64,000 nt of DNA, from the NCBI GenBank assembly GCA_038400315.1, contig CP151667.1, positions 1,437,174 through 1,501,173 on the forward strand, in the 5' to 3' direction. Source of the DNA: Isosphaeraceae bacterium EP7. GTDB lineage: Bacteria > Planctomycetota > Planctomycetia > Isosphaerales > Isosphaeraceae. The position numbers and the translations under genes are program-made. Below the pieces are notes generated by a model. The model was not told the DNA's origin. It saw only the letters and a list, made by a program, of their open reading frames with translations, and made no database searches. Below, one piece after another: positions 55,036 through 62,344 of this stretch (position 1 is the first letter of the stretch; every line of letters starts with the position of its first letter).

Positions 55036-56034
55036 TCACCCCGGCAGAAGCTTGGCCCCGCAGGATGAGCAGAACTTGGCCCCCGGCTGGGTGGGTTGAC
55101 CGCATTCTGAGCAAAAGCGAGCGGAGCCGCCCGGCGTGACGGTCGGCGGTGCGGGCGTCGCGGGAGGGACGGGTGACGTTGGCGGTGTGCCCGAGTTCAT
55201 GGCCTCGCGGACCATGCCGGGGATCATCATGCCGAAGCCGGCCCCCATCCCGGCCTGCATGGCCCCGCCGGCGTTCCCCTGGTTCTGGGCGGCCTCGGTC
55301 AGGGCCTTGGCGGCCTGGAATTTGAGGTATTCGTTCATGTTGCCGACGACGGCCATGCCCGAGCGGGTGTCCATCATCGCCTGGACTTCGTCGGGAGGGG
55401 TGATGGCGCCGATGAATAGCTCGGTCAGCTCCAGGCCGTAGGTCCTGAAGTCGCTGGCGGTGGCCGCACGGGCGGCGGCGGCGACCTCATCGTAGTGTTT
55501 GGGCAGGTCGAGGATACTGGTGAGCGAGGTGCCGAGGACGTCGGTGAGGCGGGCGACGATCCGGTCGCGGAGGAAGTCTTCGATCTGCTCGGTCGAGTAG
55601 AGGCCCTGGGTGCCGACGACGCTGGAGAGGAACAGGCGCGGCTCGGCGACTCTCATGGCGAACTTACCGAAGGAGCGTAGCCTGACGATCGAGAGCTCCT
55701 TGTCGCGGAACGGGATCGGTTGCTTGGTCCCCCATTTCAGGTCGAGGAAGGTCTGCATGCCGACGAAGTAGACGGAGGCCTGGAACGGAGACTTCTCCCA
55801 GGGGAACGTCAGGATCCGGGTGAGGAGCGGGACGTTGGCGGTGGTGAGCGTGTGGCGGCCGGGTCCGAACTCGTCGTAGACCTGCCCCTCGCGGACGAAG
55901 AGGGCCCGCTGGGATTCCTGGACGAGGAGCTGGGCGCCGTACTTGATGTCGGTCGAGCCCTCGGGCGGGACGCGCCTGACGATGGTCTGGCCGGTGGGGT
56001 CGAAGAAGTCGATGACCTCGAGGCGATTGGACAT
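55036..56034 (-). CDS. SPFH-domain protein with C-terminal zinc ribbon
   Basis: 332 residues. Residues about 20-230 resemble the SPFH (stomatin/prohibitin/flotillin-like) fold of YdjI-type or virion-core-like proteins (FVREGQVYDEFGPGRHTL, LRSFGKFAMRVAEP). A Gly/Met/Ala-rich linker follows, then a C-terminal zinc ribbon (CSECGQPTQPGAKFCSSCG). No N-terminal membrane anchor. First of a set of three minus-strand genes with two small proteins; divergent from the zinc-ribbon kinase. Confidence 0.85.
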   Translation of the reverse strand: MSNRLEVIDFFDPTGQTIVRRVPPEGSTDIKYGAQLLVQESQRALFVREGQVYDEFGPGRHTLTTANVPLLTRILTFPWEKSPFQASVYFVGMQTFLDLKWGTKQPIPFRDKELSIVRLRSFGKFAMRVAEPRLFLSSVVGTQGLYSTEQIEDFLRDRIVARLTDVLGTSLTSILDLPKHYDEVAAAARAATASDFRTYGLELTELFIGAITPPDEVQAMMDTRSGMAVVGNMNEYLKFQAAKALTEAAQNQGNAGGAMQAGMGAGFGMMIPGMVREAMNSGTPPTSPVPPATPAPPTVTPGGSARFCSECGQPTQPGAKFCSSCGAKLLPG

Positions 56035-56581: not shown

Positions 56582-57148
56582 TCAGTAGAGGTCGAGCCCG
56601 CGCGAGAGGCGGTCTTCCAGGCCGTCGGCTCGCTCGGCGATCCGGCGGACGAGGTCGGCCGGGTCCGCGCCTTCCAGGTGGTCGGCGTGGAAGTTCTGGA
56701 TCACGACGAAATATTCCTCGCCGCGGAGCACGCGGATGGCGAAGTGGCCCTCGACGGCCCGTGCATTCAGCTTGAGCAGGGCCCTGGCGTCTCGGTCGTT
56801 GGCCGGCCCGCAGATCGAGACGAGCGCGATGATCGAGCGACCTTGGGCGTCGTGTCCGGCCAACCCGGCGTAGACCGCCTGCTTGCGGTCGAGGGGGAGG
56901 GGGACGATCACCCGGTAGCCGTGCGACGAGGGGGTGACTTGCAGCCCGGTGCCGCCGACCCAGTTGCGCAGGGCACGGCTAGCGTCGGCATCGGAGGGGT
57001 CGGGGGGCTCGTAATCGCCCAGGGCCTCGCGTGCGACGTCGGCGTCGGGCCTGGGGATGCCGAGGGGAATCCCGCAGCCGGCGCAGAACCGGTCCGACTC
57101 GAAGTTGCCTGTGTCGCAGCGTGCGCAGGCGAAGGTGGTGTAGGGCAT
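56582..57148 (-). CDS. Zinc-ribbon protein with YbjN-like domain
   Basis: 188 residues from the ATG at 57148; the frame extends upstream but that part is antisense to the kinase leader. The N-terminus has CARC...CAGC, a zinc ribbon (FACARCDTGNFESDRFCAGCG). The C-terminal ~120 residues resemble the YbjN/type-III-chaperone-like fold (LLKLNARAVEGHFAIRV, VRRIAERADGLEDRL). First gene of the leftward unit, divergent from the kinase with 214 bases between starts. Confidence 0.75.
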   Translation of the reverse strand: MPYTTFACARCDTGNFESDRFCAGCGIPLGIPRPDADVAREALGDYEPPDPSDADASRALRNWVGGTGLQVTPSSHGYRVIVPLPLDRKQAVYAGLAGHDAQGRSIIALVSICGPANDRDARALLKLNARAVEGHFAIRVLRGEEYFVVIQNFHADHLEGADPADLVRRIAERADGLEDRLSRGLDLY

Positions 57149-57362
57149 CGCCGGGGGCTCGCTTCCGAGGGTCGTCGATCGCCGGGCTGTCTCGCCGTCC
57201 GGGTTTACGTCCGAGGCGCTGTAGCTTAATCGGCAGGGGACGGGCTTGGAAGCGGGCGGCGTCGACTCCGCATGTCCGCCCGGCCTGGTTCTGCTAGACT
57301 GGTCGAGGGGGCGGCCGGGCGAACCCGGGCGCGGCCGGACGGGCCAGAGAAGTGGGATCCGC

Positions 57363-60194
57363 ATGCAGGCGTCCTGCCCGCGCTGCTCCAAGGTCACGGA
57401 ATTCATCGGCGAGCCGCCGCTGTTCTGCGCCTATTGCGGCCAGCCCTTGCGCGCACCCGCCGGCCTGGACACGACCGCCAACTATTCCTGGCCGGCCGGG
57501 GTCCCGACGGGCCTGGAAGCGACCGCCGCGTTCTCGCCAGGCTCGCTGGCGGAGGCGAGGTCCGCCGAGGTCGTCCCGGAGCGACTGAGCAATTTCCGCC
57601 TGTTGCGCAAGATCGGCGCCGGCGGGATGGGCTCGGTGCACGAGGCCGAGGACGAGAGAAATGGCCGCCGGGTGGCGATCAAGCTGATCGCGCCTCATCT
57701 GCTGGCGTCCGACGTGGCCGTCGAGCGGTTCTTGCAGGAGGGGCGGCTGGCCAGCGCCATCACCCACCCACGATGCGTGTTCGTGCTGGCGGCCGACGCC
57801 TTCGACGGGCATCCGTATATCGTGATGGAGCTGATGTCCGGCTCGACCCTGAAGGACCTCGTCGAGTCGGGCGGCCCGCTGTCTCCCGAGGAGTCGGTCG
57901 CCAAGATCCTGGACGTGATGGAGGGGCTGGGCGAGGCGCACCGGCTGGGGGTGATCCATCGGGACGTCAAGCCATCCAACTGCTTCCTGGAGGCCGACGG
58001 CCGGGTCAAGGTGGGCGACTTCGGCCTGTCCAAGAGCCTGATCACCGGGCTGGACCTGACGCACTCGGGGTCGTTCCTGGGCACCCCGCTCTATGCCTCG
58101 CCCGAGCAGATCCGCGGCGAGGTGCTCGACTCTCGGACCGACGTCTATTCGGTGGCCGCGACGCTGTATTTCATGATCACGGGAAAGGCCCCGTTCGAGG
58201 CGAAGGGGAAGGATGCGGCGTCGACCCTGGCGATGATCGTCAGCGATGACGCGCCTTCAATCCGCCAGTTCCGGCCCGACGTGTCCAAGGCCCTCGATCA
58301 GGCGATCTTGAAGGGGCTGAGCCGCGAGCGGGGGCGGCGGTATCGCGACCTGGCCGAGTTCGCGCGAGTGCTGGCCCCGTTCCTGCCGAGCCGGTTGTCG
58401 ATCGGCGGGATCGGCCTGCGGATCGTGGCGTTCGTGCTGGAGATGTTCGGCGTCCGGTTCCTGATCTACACCTTCGTGGATATCGGCTGGGTGCTGTCGA
58501 CGGGCCGGCAGGACACGCTGCACGTCAACGTGGCGATCTCGCTGGCGTTCGATCTCTTCTATTTCGGGTATTTCGCGCTGCTGGAAGGGCTGTACGGGGC
58601 CTCGCTGGCCAAGCGGTTCTTCGGGCTGCGGGTTTATGACTCGCGACGGACCACGCCCCCCGGCCTGGGGCCCGCGTTGCTGCGCACGACCGTCTTCTTC
58701 GCCTTGACGACCCTTCCGGCCGACCTGCTCAGCCTTTACTCGGTCTGGCAGAGGGCCTATGCCCTGGATAAGTGGGTGCCGTTCCTGCGCATCCCGGGAC
58801 TGCTGCTCATCACGTCGACGATGCGAGCGTCCAACGGATTCCGAGGGCTGCACGAGCTGGTGAGCGAGACGCGGGTGATCCGCCTGCGTGGCCGCGACCG
58901 GTTCCGCTCCCGCATCTTCGACCGCGGGCAGGTGACTCCGGGCTCGCCCAGGCTGATGCAGCCGGGCGGGATCCCCTCGGAGCTGGGGCCTTACCAGGTC
59001 GAGGGGGCCCTGAGCTGGGACCCCGAGCCGCGGGTGTTGCACGGCAATGACGCGGGGCTGGGCAGGCCCGTCTGGGTCGTCCTCAGGGCGGTCGACGACC
59101 CGCCGGCGTCGGACGTGCGCCGCGAGGTCAACCGGATCGGCCGGCCCCGATGGATCAGCGGCGGAGAAGATGACGACCTGCGGTGGGATGCCTTCATCGC
59201 GCCCGGGGGCCGATCCCTGCCCGACCTGGTCAAGTCGACCGAACGGCTGACCTGGCGCGAGGCCCGGCCGATCCTGGAGACGCTCTCGGAGGAACTTGCC
59301 GCGTCGTGCGACGACGCGACGCTCCCCCTCGGGCTGTCCGTGGACAGCATCTGGGTGCTGCCCAACGGCCAGATCCAGCTGACCGACGTGCCCGCGGGGA
59401 AGGGGGCCCCGCTCGCGGAGGGGTCTCGCTCCGTGGCACTGACCTCGTCGGATCGGTCGCTGAGGCTGCTGTATGAAGCCGCGACCCTAGCCCTGACCGG
59501 CCGTCGTGCGGAGGAGGACGAGCCGTCTTCGCCGATCCTGACGGCCTTGCCGCTGCACGCGCGCGGGCCCCTGGACCGACTCTGCGGGGCCGGATACCGA
59601 TACGAGCATCCGAGGGCCTTCCATGACGCGCTGGAGAAGACGCACGACCGGCCGACCTGCCTGACGCCGATGGCGCGGCTCGTCAGCCTGGGGGCGTTCG
59701 TCGCGATCAGCTCGCTCCAGGCGTCCCTGATCCTGCTCCCGCTTGCGCTTGTGCGTGTTTATATTGCCTATCTGAAATCGCCCGAGGAAGGGTATGCGAC
59801 GAACCCCGAGCTGGTGGACTCGCTGACGCGGATGCTCGACCACCTGCTGAGGATCTTGCCGGCGGTGATCCCGCTGGGCTGGGCCGTCTGGTCGTGGGCG
59901 ACCTGCGGCGGCTTCACCCGTCGGCTGGCGGGGACCGCGGTCGTCAGGCTCAACGGTCGCCCTCCTTCGAGGCTCCAGCACGCCTTGCGCGAGGCGACGC
60001 TCTGGTCGATCTTCGTGATCCTGGCGGTCGGGCCGATCACACTGACCTATCAGCTCTCGCGATCGGAGGGGGCGCTCCGGGGCGCGGCGCTGGCGTCGAT
60101 CGCGATGCTGCTGGTGTACGCGGCTGTCGGGACGCTCTCGCCGAAGCGGATGCTGCACGACGTCCTCGCCGGCACGACGCTCGTCCCCAGGTAG
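57363..60194 (+). CDS. Zinc-ribbon Ser/Thr protein kinase with RDD, pseudokinase-like and second RDD domains
   Basis: 943 residues from the ATG at 57363. A zinc ribbon (CPRC..CAYC) is at the N-terminus, then a Hanks-type kinase: GAGGMGSV loop, Lys107 in VAIK, HRDVKPSN with catalytic Asp201, DFGLS with Asp219, all intact. From about 345 an RDD-type membrane domain (RFLIYTFVDIGWVL, KRFFGLRVYD). Residues about 540-690 look like a degenerate second kinase (LGPYQVEGALS, LPDLVKSTERLTW) without catalytic residues. A second RDD-like membrane domain ends the protein (RRLAGTAVVRLNG). Membrane signalling; the tandem arrangement looks like an internal duplication. Confidence 0.87.
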   Translation: MQASCPRCSKVTEFIGEPPLFCAYCGQPLRAPAGLDTTANYSWPAGVPTGLEATAAFSPGSLAEARSAEVVPERLSNFRLLRKIGAGGMGSVHEAEDERNGRRVAIKLIAPHLLASDVAVERFLQEGRLASAITHPRCVFVLAADAFDGHPYIVMELMSGSTLKDLVESGGPLSPEESVAKILDVMEGLGEAHRLGVIHRDVKPSNCFLEADGRVKVGDFGLSKSLITGLDLTHSGSFLGTPLYASPEQIRGEVLDSRTDVYSVAATLYFMITGKAPFEAKGKDAASTLAMIVSDDAPSIRQFRPDVSKALDQAILKGLSRERGRRYRDLAEFARVLAPFLPSRLSIGGIGLRIVAFVLEMFGVRFLIYTFVDIGWVLSTGRQDTLHVNVAISLAFDLFYFGYFALLEGLYGASLAKRFFGLRVYDSRRTTPPGLGPALLRTTVFFALTTLPADLLSLYSVWQRAYALDKWVPFLRIPGLLLITSTMRASNGFRGLHELVSETRVIRLRGRDRFRSRIFDRGQVTPGSPRLMQPGGIPSELGPYQVEGALSWDPEPRVLHGNDAGLGRPVWVVLRAVDDPPASDVRREVNRIGRPRWISGGEDDDLRWDAFIAPGGRSLPDLVKSTERLTWREARPILETLSEELAASCDDATLPLGLSVDSIWVLPNGQIQLTDVPAGKGAPLAEGSRSVALTSSDRSLRLLYEAATLALTGRRAEEDEPSSPILTALPLHARGPLDRLCGAGYRYEHPRAFHDALEKTHDRPTCLTPMARLVSLGAFVAISSLQASLILLPLALVRVYIAYLKSPEEGYATNPELVDSLTRMLDHLLRILPAVIPLGWAVWSWATCGGFTRRLAGTAVVRLNGRPPSRLQHALREATLWSIFVILAVGPITLTYQLSRSEGALRGAALASIAMLLVYAAVGTLSPKRMLHDVLAGTTLVPR

Positions 60195-60239: not shown

Positions 60240-60866
60240 TCAGTCGAGTTCCTTGATCCGCACGTTGCGGAACCGGACGATCGACTTGGGGTCGTGGTTC
60301 TGCAGGCCGAGGTACCCCGACTCGCCGCGCGAGCCCTTGTACGAGTTGACCTGCCGACCATTCAGCAGGATCGTGTACTCCTGCCCTTTCACCCTGATCT
60401 CGTAGTCGTTCCACTCGCCCACCGGTCGGAGCGTGGGCTTGGCGTCGGCGGCCTTGAACGAGTAGACGGCGCCGGTGCGGTGCTCGGGGTCGGCGCCGTC
60501 GCAGATCTGGATCTCATAGCCCTCGTTGACGGCGTCCCAGGGGCTCTTCGGCTTCTTGGGGAAGCGGACGAAGACCCCCGAGTTGTTGCCGGCGTCGGAG
60601 AGCTTGTACTCGACGCGCAGGATGAAGTCCTTGAACGGCTTGCGGGAGTACCAGAGCATCCCCATGCCGCCGTCGGTGACGAGCACCCCGTCCTTCTCCT
60701 CGACGATCGAGCCGGGGCCGACCATCTCCCAGCCCTGCTTGGCAGGGTCGCCCGAGCGGTATAGCTCGGTGAACCCCTCGTCGGCCTTGGAGTCACCTTT
60801 GGGTGAGTCGGCCCCGGCCAGGGCCGCCATTAGCACCCCCAGCAGTGTCGCCGTTCGGAGCTTCAT
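60240..60866 (-). CDS. Exported DUF1080 protein (3-keto-disaccharide hydrolase-like)
   Basis: 208 residues with a signal peptide (ATLLGVLMAALAGADS). The DUF1080 fold (concanavalin-like) is shown by FTELYRSGDPAKQGWEMVG, FKDFILRVEYKLSDAGNNSGVFVR and YEIQICDGADPEHRTGAVY (each partial), with NDYEIRVKGQEYTILLNG near the end. Members hydrolyse 3-keto-glycosides or bind polysaccharides. It precedes another small exported gene. Confidence 0.9.
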   Translation of the reverse strand: MKLRTATLLGVLMAALAGADSPKGDSKADEGFTELYRSGDPAKQGWEMVGPGSIVEEKDGVLVTDGGMGMLWYSRKPFKDFILRVEYKLSDAGNNSGVFVRFPKKPKSPWDAVNEGYEIQICDGADPEHRTGAVYSFKAADAKPTLRPVGEWNDYEIRVKGQEYTILLNGRQVNSYKGSRGESGYLGLQNHDPKSIVRFRNVRIKELD

Positions 60867-60876
60867 CGGAGTCGCC

Positions 60877-61431
60877 TCACTTCTTGGTGACGTTCATGGA
60901 CTTGATGAGGGCGTCGAACGCCTTCTCGGCGTCGTCGATGGTCTTGGCCGGGCCGATCGTCTTGATGAAGTAGCCGGCGTCGTCGGTCTGGACGATGGCG
61001 CCCAGGAGCTGATAGCCGGGCTTCACGCCCGCCTTGGAGAAGGGGTCGAGGTAGCGGCCGGCGATCTTCACGCGGGTGACGTCGGTGTTCTTCCCCTTGA
61101 CCTTCTTGGACTCGACCTTGGGAAGCTCTCCGTCTTCGCTCTTGAACTGGCCCTGCCAGCGGCTGACGTTCGACTCGACCGAGCCGGCGCCGCCGGGGAA
61201 GACGAAGACGACCAGCTCGCCCGGGTCGTTGTCACCCTTAGAGGCGGGGATGCTGATCTGTGCCTTGCGCATGCTGGAGGTGGGCTTGCCCTCTTTCCAG
61301 GTGGCGGGGATCTCGAAGGTCAGGCCGCCGACGTCGACGGTCTTGGGGGGGGCGTCGGCCCCGAGGATCAGGGTCGCGGTCAGCGACAGGCCCAGGGCCA
61401 GCGCATGGATTCGTCGATTCTTCGTGGCCAC
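60877..61431 (-). CDS. Small exported protein of unknown function
   Basis: 184 residues with a GTG start at 61431, chosen because GAGGAGCG lies 5-12 bases upstream. The N-terminus (IHALALGLSLTATLILGADA) is a signal peptide. The mature part contains FEIPATWKEGKPTSSMRKAQ and RYLDPFSKAGVKPGYQLLGA (partial), as in planctomycete small exported proteins with a PsbP-like or DUF1795-like look. Family uncertain. It is immediately upstream of the DUF1080 gene (10-base gap) and they may be coexpressed. Confidence 0.6.
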   Translation of the reverse strand: MATKNRRIHALALGLSLTATLILGADAPPKTVDVGGLTFEIPATWKEGKPTSSMRKAQISIPASKGDNDPGELVVFVFPGGAGSVESNVSRWQGQFKSEDGELPKVESKKVKGKNTDVTRVKIAGRYLDPFSKAGVKPGYQLLGAIVQTDDAGYFIKTIGPAKTIDDAEKAFDALIKSMNVTKK

Positions 61432-61543
61432 GTCGATCGCTCCTCGGTTGTGTCGTCCGCGCCCCGGCACTACCATGCCGTGAAACCGGGGCGCCTCGCC
61501 TGCCCGCCGACGCCCCCACCATCACTCTCGGGAGCGTCCTCTC

Positions 61544-62344
61544 ATGCCCTTCGCACGCGTCATGGCCCTGTCCGTCTTCCTGGCTTTTGCGGGGATTTGC
61601 CCCGCCTACGCGCAGAAGAAGGCGCCCGACGGCGCGAAGGTGCTGATGCTGAGCGGAGGCGCCAGGCAGCACCACGGCTACCGCGACCAGGCATTTTACT
61701 TGGCCAACCTCCTGGAGGACACCGGGCGGTTCCAGGTCACCATCGCCGAGGACGCCGAAATCCTCGTCACCCCGGCCCTGGGCAAGTACGACGCCCTGAT
61801 CATGATGACCGATCGCCGCGACCCCGAGTTCAAGCTGACCCTCCCCCAGCAGCACGCCCTCCTCGATTACGTCAAGGCAGGCCACGGCTACGTCAGCCTC
61901 CACGGCGGGGACAACGCCGCCCCCGACTGGGTTCCCGAGTGGCGAGAGATGCTCGGCGGCGTGTTCTCGCACGACACCCAGGGGGGCAAGTACCCCGATT
62001 CCAAGACCCGCAAAGGCCAATATCGGATCAAGATCGCCAATCCCGATCACCCGGTCACGAAGGGCCTGACCGACTTCGACCTGTCTGATGAGCTTTACTA
62101 CAAGCTCCAGTTGGTGCCCGGCGGTATCCAACCCCTGGCCACCACCGAATTCGAGGGTCAGGCCTGGCCCGTCGCCTGGGTCCGCGAATACGGCAAGGGG
62201 CGCGTCTTTCATACCCCGCTGGGCCACCGCGATTTCGGCCCGGGCAAGGCCGATCCGCTGCATACGCCCGAGTTCGCCAGGCTCCTGGTCCAGGGGCTGA
62301 CCTGGACCGTGGATTCCTTGCCGAAGCCGACGGCCGCTCGCTAG
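61544..62344 (+). CDS. Exported ThuA-like domain protein
   Basis: 266 residues with a signal peptide (ALSVFLAFAGICPAYAQ). The ThuA/class I glutamine-amidotransferase-like fold is shown by AKVLMLSGGARQHHGYRDQA, DALIMMTDRRDP, GHGYVSLHGGDNAA and GRVFHTPLGHRDFG. ThuA-domain proteins in planctomycetes accompany carbohydrate hydrolases. It is divergent from the DUF1080 pair with a shared control region of about 110 bases. Confidence 0.9.
   Translation: MPFARVMALSVFLAFAGICPAYAQKKAPDGAKVLMLSGGARQHHGYRDQAFYLANLLEDTGRFQVTIAEDAEILVTPALGKYDALIMMTDRRDPEFKLTLPQQHALLDYVKAGHGYVSLHGGDNAAPDWVPEWREMLGGVFSHDTQGGKYPDSKTRKGQYRIKIANPDHPVTKGLTDFDLSDELYYKLQLVPGGIQPLATTEFEGQAWPVAWVREYGKGRVFHTPLGHRDFGPGKADPLHTPEFARLLVQGLTWTVDSLPKPTAAR

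Follow-up and report, generated by a model that had tools for sequence, protein, structure and literature searches.

An active kinase and a predicted ATP-free pseudokinase, each followed by an RDD membrane domain, in one planctomycete protein

A single gene of Isosphaeraceae bacterium EP7 encodes a membrane protein in which an active PknB-type Ser/Thr kinase (K1) shares one chain with a degenerate kinase (PK), each of them followed by an RDD domain. PK is predicted from its sequence to be an ATP-free pseudokinase with a protein-filled spine, and may control its active neighbor. The gene lies in a window of 64,000 nucleotides (contig CP151667.1), to which positions refer unless another contig is named, and its product runs, from N- to C-terminus, zinc ribbon, K1, RDD1, PK, RDD2. 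A preliminary description of this DNA had proposed that an intact kinase and a dead one each lead into an RDD domain, a layout that is borne out here and whose order is common to the protein's relatives. Its features are the following:

57363..60194, forward strand: whole gene (943 aa), an intact open frame supported by full-length relatives and alignment
57375..57437, forward strand: N-terminal zinc ribbon, C5-x2-C8 ... C22-x2-C25, all four Cys present in 20/25 sequences
57594..58382, forward strand: K1, active PknB-type Ser/Thr kinase domain (residues 78–340), by Pfam, invariant residues and PknB fold match; motif residues K107, E126, H199-R200-D201, N206 and D219-F-G221
58398..58877, forward strand: RDD1, four-helix membrane domain (residues 346–505) with hallmark R353 and acidic residue 360, by Pfam RDD
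58980..59666, forward strand: PK, pseudokinase domain (residues 540–768), by profile comparison and predicted fold
59058..59060, forward strand: L566 in PK, equivalent to PknB L33 of the presumed N-lobe dimer surface
59073..59075, forward strand: W571 in PK, replacing the VAIK alanine (adenine ceiling, C-spine), Trp in 24/25
59352..59354, forward strand: W664 in PK, replacing the β7 C-spine residue (F208 of K1), Trp in 24/25
59385..59387, forward strand: D675 in PK, equivalent to the DFG aspartate, Asp in 21/25 and not followed by F-G
59667..60191, forward strand: RDD2 (residues 769–943), R772 invariant, helix 1 without a conserved Asp, by Pfam

Domain order, the predicted fold of PK, its residue losses and tryptophan pair, and conservation are computed results, the last of these obtained from a set of 25 sequences comprising the EP7 protein and 24 others from Isosphaeraceae and distant planctomycetes, all with the same domain order. 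The zinc ribbon, already recognized in the preliminary description, consists of two CxxC knuckles whose cysteines C5, C8, C22 and C25 are kept together in 20 of the 25, and Pfam zinc-ribbon models reach E 0.16 at best. K1 is matched by Pfam Pkinase (E 2.4e-40, residues 79–286) and by the PknB structure (Z 31.2, 36% identity over 252 residues). Residues K107, D201 and D219 occupy the positions first assigned to them and are identical in all 25 sequences, as are G85, G87, G90, A105, E126, H199, R200, K203, N206 and G221, with F220 kept in 24. The features by which a Hanks-type Ser/Thr kinase is recognized, namely the VAIK lysine, the HRD and DFG aspartates and the glycine loop, are all found in 25/25, and judged by its sequence K1 is the sole catalytic domain of the protein. 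A model of the whole chain reached a pLDDT of 81.6 and a pTM of 0.74, the matches listed in a fold search with this model all being due to K1.

PK has no direct sequence match to K1, yet profile comparison and predicted fold identify the two as homologous. Cut out alone, PK matches nothing in Pfam or NCBIfam, blastp against K1 of the same protein gave no match at E 10, and a tblastn search with PK against plasmids was likewise without a match. A comparison of profiles, however, aligned PK with K1 across the entire domain (probability 97.1, E 6e-11), and a scripted repeat scored 66.7 for K1 and 10.1 for RDD1, while 30 column shuffles reached 19.1 at best. A similar comparison joins RDD1 to RDD2 (E 2e-10), so that the two halves, when aligned, reveal a kinase-RDD repeat well beyond chance. 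When the PDB was searched with the PK profile, PknA was matched (E 3e-6). AlphaFold2, applied to residues 525–785 with 24 relatives, returned a model of high quality (mean pLDDT 90.7, pTM 0.86) that encloses the segment, residues 530–700, singled out in the preliminary description. Foldseek with this model listed kinases throughout, headed by PknA at 1e-10, and VIA-align superposed it on PknB with Z 20.3 and an rmsd of 2.7 Å over 216 aligned residues. Thus, PK is predicted to adopt the two-lobed protein kinase fold, and a non-kinase fold for residues 540–690, named in the preliminary description as the outcome contrary to its proposal, is not what was predicted. MviN and EssB are absent from the fold matches listed for PK, but such an absence does not speak against their being related.

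The module had been described as degenerate and devoid of catalytic residues, and both the VAIK lysine and the HRD aspartate are indeed missing from PK in 25/25 sequences. The lysine position is filled by V, L, R, I, F, Q or H, the HRD histidine is a proline in 23 of the 25, the catalytic-loop asparagine survives in a single sequence, and the glycine loop is gone. With the loss of at least one catalytic motif PK falls within the definition of a pseudokinase, DFG being reduced to its aspartate in 21/25. Positions 571 and 664, aligned through K1 and PknA, correspond to the two catalytic-spine residues between which adenine is held in active kinases, and both are tryptophan even in the remoter members L153, L154 and L157. 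Among 49 comparison kinases drawn from the EP7 genome and other planctomycetes, neither spine position is ever Trp, and the lysine and the HRD and DFG aspartates are kept in 49/49. It is inferred that the two tryptophans stand in for adenine and fix PK in a closed, spine-complete state. Because the lysine, the HRD motif and the glycine loop are lost and a Trp pair occupies the adenine positions, PK is predicted to be unable to use ATP in the normal way; since the DFG aspartate is mostly kept, PK may still make some contact with metal or nucleotide. Other residues of PK are invariant (G542, R568, R591, R594, R596, W597, G616, W631).

An RDD membrane domain had been described behind the intact kinase, and in the whole-protein search Pfam RDD matches residues 348–458 (E 8e-15), RDD1 passing the PF06271 cut-off with 44.7 bits against 24.1. 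R353 is present in 25/25, and residue 360 is Asp in 24/25, with Glu in the EP7 protein. The RDD-like domain described for the second half also stands, since excised RDD2 scores 25.4 and 25.6 bits against the same cut-off of 24.1, but it does not retain the full Arg-Asp-Asp set: R772 is kept, the helix-1 Asp is not conserved, and D933 is kept near the C-terminus. In the whole-chain model the two domains share the order of two long helices, a short helix, a strand, two helical stretches, a short helix and a strand. Lacking a conserved helix-1 Asp, RDD2 may be an RDD-like domain degenerate to the same degree as PK. Earlier work presents RDD proteins as cation/proton antiporters or as associates of a membrane protease (PMC7568657), and describes a conserved site within the membrane that is open toward the cytoplasm (PMC12419801).

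How widespread this fusion is among planctomycetes had been posed as a question for a homology search, which finds it conserved in the family and extending to other families of the phylum. Among 45 genomes belonging to EP7's taxonomic family, 19 carry the second half (EP7 counted), and full-length relatives there share 36–45% identity. The named records retrieved with the pseudokinase profile comprise, among others, Tautonia sociabilis, Aquisphaera insulae, Paludisphaera soli and uncultured Isosphaeraceae. Across the phylum, 392 sampled genomes yielded strong matches (E < 1e-60) in seven genomes beyond the family, along with L153 and L154, two full-length members that are more remote. All have the kinase-RDD-pseudokinase-RDD order except L069, cut by a contig end, and L157 (1829-3454, forward strand), a protein of 541 aa in which the kinase is joined directly to the pseudokinase, with no RDD and no membrane segment. 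The kinase pair is thus conserved together even where the membrane part is absent, which favors, at the level of sequence, a direct relation between K1 and PK. Mean identity is higher in PK (0.379) than in RDD1 (0.309), and the pairwise distances of K1 and PK correlate at 0.844, the highest value among all domain pairs. A separate observation concerns L066 (7047-9928, reverse strand, genome G031), whose kinase-RDD and pseudokinase-RDD halves lie in two overlapping frames, either through a sequencing error or because the gene is truly split.

The preliminary description attributed the second half to internal duplication, a claim that stands in part. In the tree the K1 domains group in a single clade and so do the PK domains (100/100 for both), with a similar inner order, which fits joint inheritance since the family ancestor. 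The 7.2 Mb genome contains exactly two RDD domains, both within this protein, and since it holds no other, within-gene duplication of a kinase-RDD unit is the simplest account, one that fits the data but is not proven. Although the careful tree itself places PK apart from K1, a K1+PK clade is not rejected (AU p 0.146); in the quick tree PK lies far from K1, the constrained tree being better by 27 log units (p 0.838). As the constrained tree outperformed the quick one, the reading of origin relies on the careful tree and its test alone. The second half could instead descend from a different kinase-RDD paralogue fused to the first, a serious alternative whose probability falls somewhat below even. 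It draws on the separate position of the PK clade in the careful tree and on the higher scores that some other kinases attain with the PK profile, and is countered by the long PK branch, which makes its placement unsure, by the failure of either test to reject a K1+PK clade, and by the absence of a further RDD domain from the genome.

A possible contact surface is indicated by L566. Its counterpart in PknB, L33, is presumably a contact residue of the N-lobe dimer. Back-to-back pairing of PknB through the N-lobe is possible (PMC6333020). The position of L566 is Leu in 24/25 sequences and Ile in one, whereas the corresponding residue of K1 (residue 100, aligned with the PknB L33D mutant) is S, Q, T, H, F or N, and Leu in 0/25. 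This retention in PK and loss in K1 suggests that the dimer contact is borne by PK rather than K1. However, Leu is common at L33-type positions (23/49 comparison kinases), so that PK may have inherited it without any selection for dimerization.

Taken together, the PK fold, the K1 residues kept in 25/25, the Trp pair, conservation, the 0.844 correlation, L157 and the dimer-surface Leu support a model in which the RDD pair drives PK to control K1, either in cis or through the pairing of two chains, and to this model we give an even chance of being right. K1 would be the enzyme and PK a non-catalytic partner beside it at the membrane, held there by both RDD domains, its shape fixed by a spine filled with protein. 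On perceiving a change in the membrane (ligand, ion or lipid), the RDD pair would shift PK with respect to K1; PK, with its N-lobe dimer Leu, would thereupon either bind to K1 in cis or bring two chains together, and autophosphorylation of K1 would be switched. Four parts of this picture are inferred: that PK binds no ATP, that PK and K1 touch, what the RDD domains signal, and in which direction control runs. A precedent is MviN, a pseudokinase unable to bind ATP, with a pocket filled by bulky aromatics and a back-to-back dimer (PMC12599244).

Next in rank after cis control or chain pairing, PK may serve as a docking platform rather than a switch, recruiting proteins to the membrane where K1 or another kinase would phosphorylate the PK-RDD2 half or a bound partner. 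This is the known role of MviN, which recruits FhaA, and of EssB/YukC (PMC12599244), and the invariant R591, R594, R596 and W597 in the αC-β4 region resemble a binding surface outside the ATP pocket; even so, the close coupling of PK to an active kinase within a single chain, which persists in the RDD-less L157, fits control of K1 equally well or better, and a platform role is considered unlikely. Another catalytic activity in PK, by comparison with SelO (AMPylation) or SidJ (glutamylation), is highly improbable: pseudokinases with new activities exist (PMC12599244) and the DFG Asp equivalent is found in 21/25, but both adenine-contact positions are Trp, and the lysine and glycine loop are absent. 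Least credible of all is a functionless, decaying relic, which would agree with the lost catalytic residues and with the lack of Pfam or NCBIfam matches to PK alone, and is strongly disfavored by conservation, the second half being open and collinear in relatives from several families of the phylum, with invariant residues and a PK more conserved than RDD1.

The surroundings of the gene offer some observations in their own right. A divergent neighbor (56585-57406, reverse strand), which carries a zinc ribbon but matches nothing in Pfam, accompanies the kinase in six family loci (58–62% identity); its listed start overlaps that of the kinase, and the true start is probably later. With an SPFH/Band 7 protein carrying a terminal zinc ribbon (55036-56034, reverse strand), zinc ribbons occur in three genes of this stretch. 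Downstream (60240-62344) lie a 3-keto-disaccharide hydrolase, a conserved protein without a Pfam match and a ThuA protein, genes that recur near several relatives (L050, L053, L054, L056). Elsewhere in the genome, three of about 60 kinase matches contain one in-frame TGA each (L007, at G000:C1:348174-349046; G000:C1:921459-922280; and 937405-938232).

A survey of planctomycete kinases names neither RDD domains nor pseudokinases in its main text (PMC11032199), and a 2025 review of bacterial pseudokinases is silent on planctomycete families and on RDD domains (PMC12599244). Searches of the literature, with subscription journals and supplements outside their scope, found no work on pseudokinases and planctomycetes that concerns such a layout by title or abstract, and work joining RDD domains, planctomycetes and kinases only for another superfamily. 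The folds are therefore known, and for their arrangement in bacteria no earlier description was found in the literature searched. To our knowledge bacterial pseudokinases have hardly been studied, and an active and a dead kinase in one natural chain offer a direct handle on the effect of a pseudokinase upon a kinase, while the Trp pair provides a sharp, testable rule for closure of the ATP site.

Among known pseudokinases, ActPs3 (MviN/Rv3910) resembles PK in the loss or reduction of three catalytic motifs, a shortened activation loop, pocket aromatics and a C-terminal membrane part (PMC12599244). The pocket-filling principle of MviN equals that predicted for PK, with other residues, and the published account places no active kinase in the same chain (PMC12599244). 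PK does not carry the ActPs3 motifs of the published table, VALT and LSIDHPSR, having V-W-[IVL]-x and P-x-x-L-S-x-D-x-V-W (PMC12599244). The GLW pseudokinases share with PK a Trp near the β3 lysine position and a C-terminal transmembrane region (PMC12599244), but differ in replacing HRD by GLW, where PK has P-x-x; in PK the Trp replaces the VAIK alanine, and a second Trp lies in β7. PknB and PknA, Hanks-type receptor kinases of Mycobacterium, have the fold and motif set of K1 and the fold of PK; they possess one helix and PASTA repeats, in contrast to the RDD membrane part and the second, dead kinase of the EP7 chain. Both RDD1 and RDD2 pass the Pfam cut-off of the RDD family (SppI/YteJ, Halobacillus RDD), from which the EP7 protein differs in pairing RDD with kinase modules and in an RDD2 without the helix-1 aspartate. 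JAK kinases and GCN2 combine a pseudokinase and a kinase in one chain, the active kinase being regulated in cis. They serve here as a working analogy, homology being claimed for the kinase fold only, and in the EP7 protein the active kinase comes first, with RDD domains between and after. By this analogy, a membrane kinase held in cis by a pseudokinase with a Trp-filled ATP site, and equipped with RDD sensors, would be an independent counterpart of the JAK/GCN2 principle, a proposal advanced tentatively, its probability lying a little short of one half.
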